Assembly (NCBI RefSeq): GCF_000430995.1
Contig: NZ_HF952018.1
Span: 359,938 to 423,937 of the forward strand
Length of the DNA: 64,000 nucleotides
DNA from: Thermobrachium celere DSM 8682
GTDB lineage: Bacteria; Bacillota; Clostridia; Clostridiales; Caloramatoraceae
Reading direction: 5' to 3'
The notes under the pieces were generated by a model. The model was not told the origin of the DNA, made no database searches, and saw only the letters and a program-made list of their open reading frames with translations. This document shows positions 4,820 through 11,741 of this stretch, piece by piece. Numbering within the stretch: the first letter of the stretch is position 1; each line of letters begins with the position of its first letter. A program made the position numbers and the translations under genes.

Positions 4820-6613
4820 ATGAAGGGAACAGTAGTGTCAACTTGGATTAAAACATGTAGAAAATTATACGGAGATGGTGTAGTAGATAGAGCATTAGAG
4901 TATGCAGGCTTTAGTAGTAATAGGATGTTTACTCCAATTGAAGATGTACAAGACGAAAAGGTCTACTCAATTATGAGCTTTATTTCAAAGGAGAAAGGAA
5001 TAACAGTTTCGGATCTTTGGAGAAGTATAGGTAGGGATAATATAAAGACTTTTAGCATGGATTACCCAGCATTTTTTAAACATGATAGTCTATATGGATT
5101 TTTAAAGTCTATGTATGATGTACATGTTATTGTTGTAAAAAGAATACCGGGTGCAAAGCCTCCTATATTAGAGTTAAAACCAATTTCAAAGCGTGAAGCT
5201 GTATTTAAATATTTTTCAAAAAGAGGAATGTTTGATTACTTTTTAGGTCTAATTGAAGGTGCAGCTGAGTTTTTTAAAGAAAAGCTTGAAATTAAGGAAA
5301 TTTCAAAGTCAGCAGATACTTTAGAATTAAAGTTAACCTTTGAAAAGGATATATATGTAACAGAAAAATACAGGATAAATAAAGCGTTAGGATTTGTAAA
5401 AGATATAGAGTTAAAAACTGCTGTAGTATCTACTATTATATTTTTAATTTTAGAAATACCAACTCTTTTAATTTCAAAACAAGCTGGAGTTTATGCATCT
5501 TTTATATATGCTTTAGTATCTACATTATTAGGTGCTAAGTTGATTAATAGGCCTCTATATAGAATTATTAAAGAAATGAAGAGGATTAAGGGACATGATT
5601 ATGTAGAGGATGGTAGAATAGAAACAGCAGACTATTATGAAAAGATATTTGATGCTCTAAATGAATATAAGGATGTAGTAAGAAAGGATTTTGTAGGATT
5701 TAAAGGAATTACAGATGAGATGAATACATTTAGTAACACACTTACAACAATTGCAGATAAGATGAAATATACATCAGATGAAATATCAGGAGTAGTTGAG
5801 CAGGTAGCAGAAGCAGCCATGACTCAAGCAGAAGAGACAGAAACTTCTGTAGCTCTATTAAATGATAATGTAGAAGCAATAAAGCATGTGGTTGAGATAG
5901 AGATGCAAAATAAAGAGGAACTTGAAAGAGCGGTAGACAAGATAGAAACAAGCTTTAAATATGTTGATATGACATCACAAAAATTAAACGAGCTTTTAAA
6001 GAACTTTGAAATGGTTAAAAATAGAAGTTTTGAAATAAAGGAGCAAGCAAAAGGAATAACAGAGGTTGTGGAGCTTGTTTCACAAATTGCAGCCCAAACA
6101 AACCTTCTTGCCCTTAATGCTTCCATTGAAGCAGCACGTGCAGGAGAGGCTGGACGTGGTTTTGCTGTTGTTGCAGATGAAGTAAGAAAGCTTGCAGAAC
6201 AGTCAAAACATGCTGTAGATGATATAAACAATAGGCTTTTAGACTTTGTTGCTCAAATTGAAGCTCAGGTTAATTCTGTAGCAGAGCAGTTTGAAGTATT
6301 AAATGATGAAAACAAAAAGCTTAATACAGCAGTTCACTCAAGTAGTGAAGCAAAGGATACAATAAAGCAGGTAGCAGACAAGCTAATTGAGACTTCAAAT
6401 AAACTACAATCAGAGACAGAATCAATTATAAAGGTGTATGAAAAGATTGAATCCCTTGCAGCAATAGCAGAGGAAAATTCAGCATCTTCAGAGGAGGTTG
6501 CTGCAAACGTTCAAAGCTATACAGAAGAAATTAAGAAGCTTATCGACAGCATATCAGACTTTAAAAAGATTACAGAGCAGTTTGCACAGGATATAGATAT
6601 TTATAAAATATAA
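4820..6613 (+). CDS. methyl-accepting chemotaxis protein with N-terminal H-NOX (heme gas sensor) domain
   Basis: 597 residues. Residues 1-~185 form an H-NOX domain: proximal heme ligand His102 (DVHVIVVK) and the propionate-binding Y131-x-S133-x-R135 motif. The distal-pocket residues Trp9, Asn74 and Tyr140, which stabilise bound O2 in the Caldanaerobacter protein, are all present in register. Two membrane helices follow (~199-219 and ~223-243), then a linker and a complete chemoreceptor signalling domain with the conserved hairpin tip ([20 protein letters not shown]). The sensor is therefore cytoplasmic with a membrane-anchored signalling rod. It should report O2 or NO to CheA/CheW. It stands alone; no che genes are adjacent. 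Confidence 0.95.
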
Positions 6614-6644
6614 AGGAGTTGGTATAAACAACTCCTTTATTTTG
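6612..6644. terminator. terminator between the convergent chemoreceptor and SNF2 genes
   Basis: Stem AAAGGAGTTG / CAACTCCTTT with a 7-nt loop, followed on the plus strand by ATTTTG. It begins at the chemoreceptor stop codon and abuts the SNF2 gene stop. Confidence 0.75.
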
Positions 6645-9212
6645 TTATTGAAGTATTTCAAGTATTTCTTTTTCAGTTAATGAATTAATAAATACTTCAC
6701 CATTTTTAATAACCGAATCAATAAGTTCTTTTTTCTTAATTTGAAGCTCATATATTTTTTCTTCAATTGATCCCTTGGTTATCATTTTAAAAACTTGTAC
6801 AACATTTTTTTGCCCAATTCTATGGGCTCTATCAGCAGCTTGTTCTTCAACTGCTGGATTCCACCAAGGGTCTAAAAGTATTACAGTGTCAGCTGTTGTA
6901 AGGTTTAACCCAGTACCTCCTGCCTTTAAAGAAATTAGAAAAACATCTGTTTTACCATTATTAAACTCATCAACTATTTGCATTCTTTTAGAGACATTAG
7001 TCGAACCATCTAAGTATGAGTATTTTATTTTTTTATTATCAAGCATTCCTTTAGTTATATGCAACAGTGAGGTAAACTGTGAAAATATTAGTACCTTATG
7101 GTTTCCTTCAATTAATTCTTCTAACAACTCTTCAAGTTGATTTAGTTTACCACTATCTCCATCGTAATTTTCTAAAAACATAGAAGGGTGGCAGGAAATT
7201 TGTCTAAGTCGAGTTAGTAGCTTTAAAATCTGCATTTTACTTGTTTCGAATTCTCCTTTTGCTATCATATCTTCAACATCTTTACGAGCTCTTGATAAAT
7301 AAGCCTTATATATGTCATTTTGTTTCTTTGTCATTTCACAAATAAGCTTTGTTTCAATCTTATCTGGTAGTTCTAACAATACGTCTGCTTTCTTTCTTCT
7401 TAATATAAAAGGTGCTATCGCCTTTTTTAATTCTTCTAAAACTTGTCTATCCTTTTCTTTGGTTATAGGTCTTTCATATTTTTCAATAAATTTGTTTTTA
7501 GAGTAAAGATGTCCTGGTAATATAAAATCAAATATTGACCAAAGTTCAATTAAATTATTTTCCATTGGAGTTCCGGTTAATGCAAATCTTGTTCTACTTT
7601 TTATTTTTTTAGTTGATTTAGCATTTAGTGACTCAGGATTTTTAATATGCTGTGCTTCATCAAGTACACAGAGATTAAAGGTGTAATTTTCATAAAACTC
7701 AATATCCCTTCTTAAAAGTGGATAAGATGTTATAATAACATCGTTATTTTCAATTTCTTGTATTAATTCTTTTCTTTTGTTTTTGTCACCGTGTACCAAT
7801 AGCACTTTTATATCAGGGGCAAATTTTTTAAATTCACTTTGCCAGTTAAAAAGTAAAGAAGATGGTGCAACTATTAATGTCTTTCCATGGTCTTTCTCTA
7901 CTGAAATTAAAGATATTGTTTGCAAGGTTTTACCTAACCCCATGTCATCAGCAAGTATACCACCTAAATCAAGATTGGATAAAATTTTGAGCCATTTAAA
8001 GCCTGTAATTTGGTAGTCTCTTAAAATAGTTTTTAGATTAGCTGGTACTTCAATATTTTGTTCTTTTGAATTGTTTAGTTTATTAATAAAATCATCAACT
8101 AATTCTCTATTTTCTATTTTTATATCCTTATTTAACTTATTAAAAACAGTTATTGCTCTAGATTTAGGGAGAATAAATTTATTATCTATTATTTCATTCT
8201 CTTCGAATTCATCTAGTACATCTAACACACTAGTTACATCATCTATATCTTTTGATTCTAATGAGATTATTTCACCAGTTTTTAGTTTATAGAACTTTTT
8301 TCTTTCTTTAATTGATTTTAATATGTTTATTATTTCTTTTTTATCTATATCATCTATGTTAAATTCCAATGATATTAAATTTGATGCAAAAAGCTTTAAA
8401 TCCATGCTGATGCATATACTTTTATTTTTATAAATTTTATTTATGCCTTCAGAAAAGTAAATTTCAGAGTAATTTTGTAAGGTTGGAACAGTATTTTTAA
8501 AAAAGTCATAAATTCTCTCATCGTCTTCTAAATAATAAAAGTCATCTGCATTTTTAAACTTTGACTGTTTTAGTAAATTTAATATTTTATTTTCCTTAGA
8601 TAATTCTCTTTTTATTAACGGATTTAACTTTTTTGGATTATTAGGTCTAATTTCAATTTCACCATACTTAAAAATTACATCTAATTTTATTCCTTGTTTG
8701 TAGGTGTCAATATAAATTTCACTTTTTAAATTGTGGTTTATTAATTCATTTTTAAATATATCTTTAATCTGAAGACTTTTTTCTTTAATAGTTTCAGGAA
8801 GTGAATTTGATAAATCATTACTATTGTTTTGATTAGTTAGATTTAAATCATCTGTTTTGTTAATTGCTTTAGGACATGGTCCATAAATATTGTTATCTGG
8901 GTAACTATCTTTAAGAAGTAAAAATAAAAAGTATATATTACCAATAAAAGGTATAGCATTAATTAGTATCCAAAATCCACTTTTATTAATGTCATGCAGT
9001 CTTCTTACAGTAATAGCTAAAGTAGGAACTAATATAAAAAAAGGATATAGGATAAACATTAGTGTATAAATCCAATTTTGTGTATATCCTGATAGTAATA
9101 AAATTGAGAAATGAGTTATTAAGCTATTTAGAATAAAAAGAAAATATTCTCTTCTACCAGTTCTTCCCTTAAAATCTTTAAATTTTTTCAATGCGTTAAT
9201 GTATGAATGCAT
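6645..9212 (-). CDS. SNF2-family DNA translocase/helicase fused to an N-terminal DUF805 membrane domain
   Basis: 855 residues in one uninterrupted frame. Residues ~8-115 match the DUF805 membrane family (FKGRTGRREYF, three hydrophobic helices, LAITVRRLHDINKSGFW, NIYGPCPK). An acidic linker and an SNF2-associated region follow (to ~400), then a complete SNF2 ATPase: LRDYQITGFKWL, Walker A ADDMGLGKT (~425), DEAQHIKN (~519), LTGTPMEN, FSQFTS, GGTGLNLTTAD and RAHRIGQ (~796). All seven helicase motifs look intact. The start ATG has GGAGG seven bases upstream, so the membrane domain is translated as part of the protein. Bacterial SNF2 proteins are normally soluble; this one would be tethered to the membrane. 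Convergent with the chemoreceptor gene. Confidence 0.92.
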   Translation of the reverse strand: MHSYINALKKFKDFKGRTGRREYFLFILNSLITHFSILLLSGYTQNWIYTLMFILYPFFILVPTLAITVRRLHDINKSGFWILINAIPFIGNIYFLFLLLKDSYPDNNIYGPCPKAINKTDDLNLTNQNNSNDLSNSLPETIKEKSLQIKDIFKNELINHNLKSEIYIDTYKQGIKLDVIFKYGEIEIRPNNPKKLNPLIKRELSKENKILNLLKQSKFKNADDFYYLEDDERIYDFFKNTVPTLQNYSEIYFSEGINKIYKNKSICISMDLKLFASNLISLEFNIDDIDKKEIINILKSIKERKKFYKLKTGEIISLESKDIDDVTSVLDVLDEFEENEIIDNKFILPKSRAITVFNKLNKDIKIENRELVDDFINKLNNSKEQNIEVPANLKTILRDYQITGFKWLKILSNLDLGGILADDMGLGKTLQTISLISVEKDHGKTLIVAPSSLLFNWQSEFKKFAPDIKVLLVHGDKNKRKELIQEIENNDVIITSYPLLRRDIEFYENYTFNLCVLDEAQHIKNPESLNAKSTKKIKSRTRFALTGTPMENNLIELWSIFDFILPGHLYSKNKFIEKYERPITKEKDRQVLEELKKAIAPFILRRKKADVLLELPDKIETKLICEMTKKQNDIYKAYLSRARKDVEDMIAKGEFETSKMQILKLLTRLRQISCHPSMFLENYDGDSGKLNQLEELLEELIEGNHKVLIFSQFTSLLHITKGMLDNKKIKYSYLDGSTNVSKRMQIVDEFNNGKTDVFLISLKAGGTGLNLTTADTVILLDPWWNPAVEEQAADRAHRIGQKNVVQVFKMITKGSIEEKIYELQIKKKELIDSVIKNGEVFINSLTEKEILEILQ

Positions 9213-9410
9213 TTAATTACCTCCAAATAAAGTTTTTATAAATTTATTAAACATATATAAACTGTTTTTAAATTTATGTAAATAACACTGTTTAATTTTA
9301 TTATGAAAGAAAGAGGTTAACTATGACAATAAAAAAATGCTGGTAATAATAAAAAAATATGTAATACATAATATATACGTTATTCGAAAAGGCCTAATTT
9401 TGAATAATAA

Positions 9411-9439
9411 TTGATGATTTCACATTTATGGTATAAAAT
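9411..9439 (+). promoter_or_regulatory. promoter of the tsaE-tsaB-rimI operon
   Basis: TTGATG at 9411 and TAAAAT at 9434 with a 17-bp spacer, about 40 bp before tsaE. The rest of the 9213-9480 gap is A+T-rich and shows no gene. Confidence 0.5.
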
Positions 9440-9480
9440 AGATTTATGCCAAAAGAAAAATAATAAGGTTGGTGTAGTAG

Positions 9481-9909
9481 ATGAAGACAGTTGTTACAAA
9501 CAGTGAGAGAGAAACATTTGAATTAGGATATAAAATTGGTAGTATTTTAAAAAAAGGAGATGTAATTTCATTAAATGGTGATCTAGGTGCAGGGAAAACT
9601 CACCTTACAAAGGGAATTGCAGCAGGACTTGGTGTTGAGGATTATATTACAAGCCCAACATTTACAATAGTAAATGAATATATGGGCAGGCTTCCACTTT
9701 ACCATTTTGATGTATACAGGATTGATGATATTTATGAGATGTATGAAATAGGATTTGAAGAGTATCTATATGGAGATGGTGTGTGTGTAGTTGAATGGGG
9801 AGATATGGTAGAGGAACTTCTCCCAAAGGATAAAATATATATCTACATAAAGAAATTAGATGATAATGTGAGGGAAGTGCAAATAGAAGGATTGGAAGGT
9901 GAATTTTGA
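9481..9909 (+). CDS. tsaE: tRNA threonylcarbamoyladenosine biosynthesis ATPase TsaE
   Basis: 142 residues, the usual family length. Walker A GDLGAGKTHLTKG (residues ~34-46), SPTFTIVNEY and the DVYRI and EWGD motifs identify TsaE (YjeE), the ATPase that works with TsaB and TsaD in making t6A37 on ANN-decoding tRNAs. Its stop overlaps the tsaB start (TGATG), indicating translational coupling. Confidence 0.96.
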   Translation: MKTVVTNSERETFELGYKIGSILKKGDVISLNGDLGAGKTHLTKGIAAGLGVEDYITSPTFTIVNEYMGRLPLYHFDVYRIDDIYEMYEIGFEEYLYGDGVCVVEWGDMVEELLPKDKIYIYIKKLDDNVREVQIEGLEGEF

Positions 9910-10619
9910 TGAAGGTTTTAGCAATGGATACATCATCAAGTGTTGCAACAGTTTCTATTGTTTCAGATGAAAAGGTTGAGGGGGAAATATATTTAAACCA
10001 TAAAATGCAGCATTCAGTTATACTTTTTCCTATGATTGAAAAGCTTTTAGATATAACAGAAAATAAGCTTGATGATATAGATATAATAGCTGTATCAGGC
10101 GGACCAGGTTCCTTTACAGGACTTAGAATTGGTGTTGCAGCTGCAAAAGGTATAGTTCAGGGTGCAAATAAGATATTTATTACAGTATCAAGCCTTGAGG
10201 CTATGGCATATCAGCAGGGAGATTTTGAAGGTGTAATTTGTCCTATTATGGATGCGTTGAGGGATAATGTATATACTGCTCTTTATCAATTTAAAGAGGG
10301 TGAATTAACTAATATAATGTCTATAGATGCACTACATATAGATGAGCTTCTAGATAAGTTAGAAGCGTATGATAGAGTTTTATTCTGTGGAGATGCTGTT
10401 TCAATTCATATAGGAAGAATAAAGGATAGGTTAAAGGAGAGGGCATATTTTTCAACACAGAATAATATGTTACCTAGAGCATCAAGCATAGGAGAGATTG
10501 CACTTAAAAAATATAGAAAAGGTGAGGTTTCAGATATATATACATTCAGTCCTTTATATATTAGAAAATCTCAAGCAGAGAGGGAATATGAAAAGAGGAC
10601 AGGTGAGAAACTTGAATGA
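9909..10619 (+). CDS. tsaB: tRNA threonylcarbamoyladenosine biosynthesis protein TsaB
   Basis: 236 residues of the ASKHA fold. MKVLAMDTSSSVATVSI and the hallmark SGGPGSFTGLRIGVAAAKG (residues ~60-80) identify TsaB, the non-catalytic partner that scaffolds TsaD and TsaE. The start is ATG 9909, overlapping the tsaE stop; a TTG just before it is less likely. tsaD is not in this window. Confidence 0.96.
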   Translation: MKVLAMDTSSSVATVSIVSDEKVEGEIYLNHKMQHSVILFPMIEKLLDITENKLDDIDIIAVSGGPGSFTGLRIGVAAAKGIVQGANKIFITVSSLEAMAYQQGDFEGVICPIMDALRDNVYTALYQFKEGELTNIMSIDALHIDELLDKLEAYDRVLFCGDAVSIHIGRIKDRLKERAYFSTQNNMLPRASSIGEIALKKYRKGEVSDIYTFSPLYIRKSQAEREYEKRTGEKLE

Positions 10620-11064
10620 TTATGTTATTGAAGATATGAAGATAGAAGATATAGATGATGTATATGAGGTTGAGGTTTTAAGCTTTAAAACTCCATGGAG
10701 TAAGGAGGCTTTTCATACTGAACTTACTCGAAACAGCTGTGCTGTTTATAAGGTTTTAAGATATAAAGGAAAAGTTATAGGCTATGCAGGAATGTGGTGC
10801 ATGATTGATGAAGGGCATATTACAAATATAGCAGTTCATCCAGAGTTTAGGGGTTTAGGGCTTGGTGAAAAGTTGGTAGATGCTTTAATCGATGAGGCAA
10901 AAAAGAGGAGTATAAATGCAATGACTCTTGAAGTTAGAGTATCAAATTTACCTGCTATTAACTTATATAAGAAAAAGGGATTTGTGTGTGTTGCAACGAG
11001 GAAGGGATACTATCAAGATACAGGTGAAGATGCTTATATTATGTGGAAATATGGTATAAATTAG
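10612..11064 (+). CDS. rimI: ribosomal-protein-alanine N-acetyltransferase RimI
   Basis: GNAT acetyltransferase with the acetyl-CoA site (HITNIAVHPEFRGLGLGEKLVDAL) and the RimI-type tail (LEVRVSNLPAINLYKKKGF, YYQDTGEDAYIMW). It N-acetylates ribosomal protein S18 in the model organism and is commonly clustered with tsaB and tsaE. The frame runs far back into tsaB. I place the start at TTG 10612, because AGGTGAG lies five bases upstream and the 150-residue product matches family length. GTG 10603 and ATG 10588 are alternatives. The coding region overlaps the tsaB end by 8 bases. Confidence 0.92.
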   Translation: MNDYVIEDMKIEDIDDVYEVEVLSFKTPWSKEAFHTELTRNSCAVYKVLRYKGKVIGYAGMWCMIDEGHITNIAVHPEFRGLGLGEKLVDALIDEAKKRSINAMTLEVRVSNLPAINLYKKKGFVCVATRKGYYQDTGEDAYIMWKYGIN

Positions 11065-11120
11065 TAGAATTATTTAGAGAGTTATAGTATAATTAAAAAA
11101 AGCCTTTAAGGAGGGGTTAT

Positions 11121-11741
11121 ATGTTATTAAGGGCACTTCTTGTTCCATTAAGTGAGCTTATCGTTGCAGCACCAGAGGATACGTTAGAGGATGCATTAGA
11201 TAAGATTAATTCAGAAAACTTTTTATCAATACCAGTAGTAGATGATAAAAGGTTTGTAGGGGTTATTTCAAAGGAGAGAATATTTAGTACATACTTTGAA
11301 CTTGGGGGAGACAGAGAAGAATTTTTAAAAAACAACAGGGTGGCTGATTTAGTAAGAACTGATATACCAATTTTAAGTGTATATGACGATATAGAAAAGG
11401 CAGCACATACATTAGAAACATACGGCATTCCTTTTGTTGCTGTTATGGATGAGAATGGCGAATTTGCAGGTATAATTACTCATCATGCAATATTTAAGAC
11501 CTTTGTTGAAATATTTGGTATGAACAAAGGACATAAGATATCTGTGATTGCATATGATATACCCGGTCAAATTGAGAAGCTTACTGACATTATAACTAAA
11601 ATGGGAGGAAATATTATAAGTTTTGTTGTTTTAGATCCAAAGGTTAAGACAGATGTAAAGGAGATAGTAATTAGGATAGATACAGATAGATTTGTTGAAA
11701 CAGTTGATGCTATAAGAGATGCAGGGTTTAGAGTACAATGA
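11121..11741 (+). CDS. CBS-pair protein with C-terminal ACT domain
   Basis: 206 residues. Two CBS motifs occupy residues ~1-130 (SIPVVDDKRFVGVISKERIF; GIPFVAVMDENGEFAGIITHHAIF), followed by an ACT-like ligand domain (ISVIAYDIPGQIEKLTDIITKMGGNIISFVV) to the end. Such proteins bind adenine nucleotides through the CBS pair and small ligands such as amino acids through ACT; the regulated target is unknown. ATG 11121 has an AAGGAGGGG ribosome site. It follows rimI by 56 bases and ends at a terminator. Confidence 0.88.
   Translation: MLLRALLVPLSELIVAAPEDTLEDALDKINSENFLSIPVVDDKRFVGVISKERIFSTYFELGGDREEFLKNNRVADLVRTDIPILSVYDDIEKAAHTLETYGIPFVAVMDENGEFAGIITHHAIFKTFVEIFGMNKGHKISVIAYDIPGQIEKLTDIITKMGGNIISFVVLDPKVKTDVKEIVIRIDTDRFVETVDAIRDAGFRVQ

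Follow-up and report, generated by a model that had tools for sequence, protein, structure and literature searches.

What would a SNF2 DNA motor do with a membrane domain at its N-terminus, and how did it come by one? The question is raised by a gene on the minus strand (6645..9212) of the window, the 64,000-nucleotide stretch of Thermobrachium celere DNA that we analysed, which encodes a DUF805 domain and a SNF2 translocase together. The parts are ordinary and their combination is unusual.

One reading frame with two domains

The gene is an ATG frame of 855 codons with no internal stop, and a Shine-Dalgarno sequence, GGAGGT (9219..9224, minus strand), lies 6 nt ahead of its ATG. The DUF805 domain (PF05656) occupies residues 13-112 (8877..9176, minus strand), with a Pfam E-value of 5.5e-24 and 85 bits against a cut-off of 25.7, covering positions 3-111 of the 111-position profile. 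It carries the family signature, RRLHDINKSGFW...NxYGP, and keeps the invariant residues RR.HDINKSGFW, P and G, with P88 and G91 in the middle of the third helix. The domain shows hydropathy peaks, and an AlphaFold2 model of modest confidence (mean pLDDT 70.5) predicts three long helices, at residues 20-44, 47-72 and 79-100; a fold search with this model gave no significant match. The SNF2 translocase portion comprises residues 107-855: an N-terminally truncated SNF2_assoc domain (PF08455, residues 107-390, 8043..8894, minus strand; E 8.5e-51, profile positions 89-373 of 373), the SNF2-related ATPase lobe 1 (residues 400-678, 7179..8015, minus strand; E 6.6e-75) and the Helicase_C lobe 2 (residues 689-800, 6813..7148, minus strand; E 2e-31). 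All motor motifs are present, namely DDMGLGKT, DEAQ and LTGTP in lobe 1 and GGTGLNL and DRAHRIGQ in lobe 2.

The junction lies at residues 112-120 (8853..8879, minus strand), between the end of DUF805 and the start of likeness to a full-length paralog. The E-values, together with the conserved signatures to either side of it, rule out both chance and an overlooked frame break. The single uninterrupted frame, the ribosome site before the DUF805 part and a junction near 8860 had all been put forward in an earlier sequence-only reading of this DNA, and all three hold. A terminator-like, bidirectional hairpin (6610..6640) separates the gene from the converging gene for a methyl-accepting chemotaxis protein (MCP).

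Origin and history of the parts

Where did the SNF2 part come from? The genome encodes one other SNF2_assoc protein, a 1067-residue paralog on the same contig at a distance of about 70 kb, with a SWIM finger at residues 72-97 (CDCPFFKKYKHICKH), a complete SNF2_assoc domain (profile 1-373) and a SNF2 motor. From its residue 120 onward the fusion is 66-67% identical to this paralog, and the join comes directly after the NxYGP end of DUF805. A motif check found no SWIM zinc finger of the form CxCx(n)CxH in the fusion, and its SNF2_assoc domain is incomplete, beginning at profile position 89; in effect, some 330 N-terminal residues of the paralog, holding the SWIM finger and the first quarter of SNF2_assoc, have been exchanged for about 112 residues of DUF805. 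Sequence comparison, then, makes the fusion a second, diverged copy of a YwqA-like SWIM-SNF2_assoc-SNF2 protein. We take the paralog to be the inherited version because it shares neighbouring genes with the copy in a congener (G012). The stretch directly behind the paralog gene, L057:9187-11395, has two frames (9187-9642 and 9941-11395) with one and the same protein start, MYVQVRMEWNEVSKFANDVKELLEYVGGKEN.

In a maximum-likelihood tree the SNF2 part of the fusion is sister to the pair formed by the paralog and the G012 protein (support 100), with similar branch lengths (0.20/0.19/0.17). This position implies that the fusion copy split off before the compared members of the genus diverged; either a duplication or a transfer from a close relative may have given rise to it. 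The dN/dS between fusion and paralog is 0.16 over the whole SNF2 part and 0.10 over the motor, values that are rough given the high dS of 1.5 and that lie close to those between the paralog and the G012 protein (0.18 and 0.11); the residual SNF2_assoc piece is looser, at 0.29. In nine of ten relative-rate tests chi2 was below 2.5; the tenth was significant, with the paralog evolving faster. With purifying selection, no clear acceleration and every motif present, the SNF2 part is not a decaying pseudogene, although that selection may at least partly predate the fusion.

The DUF805 part has a different history. No DUF805 was found in 16 further genomes of the family, nor a second one in the genome itself, and the nearest free-standing DUF805 that we met (45% identity) belongs to another family of the same order. 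Because the family offers no counterpart and the nearest one lies in another, the domain probably came in from elsewhere.

How unusual is the combination? Our DUF805 search took in about 1,230 genomes of the phylum, sampled from the family, the order, the class and the phylum as a whole, with two more orders added. Among the matches listed there was no second DUF805 in a SNF2 frame; the longest other DUF805 frame among them had 557 residues and scored below the curated cut-off. In plasmid, phage and viral collections no fusion was found, the plasmid and phage matches being separate DUF805 or separate SNF2 proteins, and in a scan of bacterial contigs with the first 200 residues of the fusion the close relatives matched the DUF805 part only. 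A literature search returned no paper combining DUF805 and SNF2, and we know of no earlier report of a bacterial SNF2 motor with a covalent membrane anchor. The fusion was found in one species only. The assumption that DUF805 is normally free-standing stands for most of its occurrences, which are frames of 110-250 residues alone, but it is not a rule: some genomes encode repeated or tandem DUF805 proteins, and one (G271, L064:1590-2969) a Ser/Thr kinase with a C-terminal DUF805, which suggests that the domain can be used as an exchangeable membrane module. By eye, a kinase-like frame lies on each side of this kinase gene, and one of the two continues into a subtilase-like stretch.

The site of the gene also varies within the genus. 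The MCP and tsaE genes adjoin without it in three congeners (G012, G014 and G015), the missing segment corresponding approximately to 6614..9406. Insertion in the lineage of the fusion is the simplest explanation, with loss in the congeners as the alternative. What, then, brought the segment in? At its borders there are no convincing terminal repeats and no transposase, and we rejected insertion by a mobile element. The junction is plain in G014; in the other two congeners it holds an intergenic repeat of about 240 bases (L061:7690-7990 in G012, and the matching site in L063 of G015). This repeat, possibly a MITE-like element, matches no Rfam family, is very abundant in the genus (44 matches in G012, 41 in G015 and 28 in G013) and is nearly missing from the genome with the fusion, where it occurs as short fragments only. 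It too was rejected as the source of the insertion, since only its last 26 bases match and these are part of the conserved promoter side of tsaE. The G015 assembly (a single contig, 74% complete) has many broken frames where congener genes are intact, probably through uncorrected sequencing errors.

Presumed membrane topology and competing explanations

We lean, with some reserve, towards the explanation that the protein is a membrane-tethered accessory SNF2 translocase of double-stranded DNA whose N-terminal module has been replaced by DUF805. A membrane tether would be the most economical reading of the fusion, and the predicted helices and hydropathy suggest a membrane location. Inserted into the cytoplasmic membrane, the DUF805 helices would keep the ATP-driven motor on the inner side, and there the motor would track along DNA and clear away or shift the proteins bound to it, possibly controlled by whatever DUF805 senses or binds; the cytoplasmic orientation, the enzymatic activity and the substrate are all presumed here. 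Its B. subtilis relatives YwqA and HepA are described as poorly characterised Swi2/Snf2 translocases that interact with RNA polymerase, which they drive backwards or displace (PMC7385302), and the fusion might do likewise near the membrane. The partial loss of SNF2_assoc may leave the motor misregulated.

This arrangement constrains the topology. With three full crossings, and with the positively charged N-terminus and the RRLHD loop inside, the motor would end up outside the cell. The tether therefore needs an even number of crossings, or else an N-out start; the chain might cross a fourth time, or its third segment might be re-entrant. A re-entrant or hairpin third segment at P88/G91 would solve the problem, and it would also fit the kinase fusion, in which the enzyme lies on the other side of DUF805. 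A broader and more tentative possibility is that DUF805 serves generally as a module for membrane docking, and perhaps sensing, that has its two ends in the cytoplasm and can be added to soluble enzymes; here it would anchor a SNF2 motor beside its soluble twin. Should the motor prove active and tethered, the genome holds a natural experiment on the membrane anchoring of a SNF2 translocase, with the soluble paralog as its built-in control, and the large, uncharacterised DUF805 family would have its topology established, with the C-terminus inside.

Could the fusion instead be a lineage-specific accident, a second SNF2 copy joined by chance to a horizontally acquired DUF805, with no membrane role, tolerated or lightly used and later lost? 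Its restriction to one species, the 16 family genomes without DUF805, its uniqueness among the matches listed from about 1,230 genomes and the gene-free site in three congeners would all fit, but 855 unbroken codons, intact SNF2 motifs and DUF805 signature, the lack of clear acceleration and a good ribosome site speak against it, and we regard it as possible though rather doubtful. It is unlikely that the two parts end up as separate products, with a soluble mature motor that is either cut free by a protease or translated from an internal start. The junction is polar and Asn-rich and could, by its sequence, be cut; however, a scan for ATG, GTG and TTG found no start at codons 53-269, and the later candidates at codons 270, 282 and 329 have no ribosome site and would cut into SNF2_assoc. 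Of the pair of observations that the sequence-only reading had set against itself, copies without DUF805 do exist, as the paralog and in the congener, but the internal start is absent from codons 53-269.

That the fusion is known from a single genome could also indicate an assembly or binning artefact in which a foreign DUF805 gene was joined to a SNF2 gene. We consider this very improbable: the gene is embedded in a contig of 1.98 Mb and flanked by conserved, collinear neighbours on either side, the join is in frame at the end of DUF805, the genome holds no second DUF805 to misjoin, and G+C is similarly low in the two parts (24.7 and 26.6%) and in the paralog (25.2%). Does the fusion belong to defence? 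In Zorya a SNF2 protein is coupled to a membrane motor; here a motor of the Zorya or DISARM type might unite both functions, and the SNF2 lobes do score against the ZorD and DpdE models, as any SNF2 would. Yet the neighbourhood contains neither ZorA/B nor a nuclease nor any other defence gene, and the scores of 269 bits against 1500 (ZorD) and 112.5 against 950 (DrmD) fall far below the NCBIfam cut-offs, which makes a defence motor highly unlikely. The neighbours encode a CRP-like regulator, an ECF transporter component, an HD-domain protein, the MCP, TsaE, a TsaD-family protein (TsaB-like) and an acetyltransferase. None of ten neighbouring genes matched PADLOC, and a defence island was rejected. 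The proposal that the motor acts in uptake, segregation or defence finds no backing in these neighbours, which are housekeeping or sensory. The MCP gene (4820-6613) joins a haem-NO-binding (HNOB) domain to a methyl-accepting chemotaxis signalling domain.

Relation to known systems

Zorya ZorD and DISARM DrmD have the SNF2 core in common with the fusion, which differs in having no companion genes and no nuclease and in its low scores. Another group is formed by the SWIM-SNF2_assoc-SNF2 proteins of Firmicutes, which include Bacillus subtilis YwqA and the NCBIfam family NF053675, 'pilus_reg_Snf2'; the model of that family matches residues 157-854 of the fusion with 591 bits, below its cut-off of 1100. 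The fusion resembles these proteins in its whole SNF2 motor and in the last three quarters of SNF2_assoc, but has DUF805 in place of the SWIM zinc finger and the first quarter of SNF2_assoc. With DUF805 proteins such as E. coli YhaH it shares the whole domain, including the RRLHDxxxSGFW and NxYGP signatures; those proteins mostly consist of 110-250 residues standing alone, whereas here the domain forms the N-terminal part of an 855-residue enzyme. The Ser/Thr kinase of G271 likewise has DUF805 attached to a soluble enzyme, although that enzyme lies N-terminal of the domain and is a kinase rather than a DNA motor.
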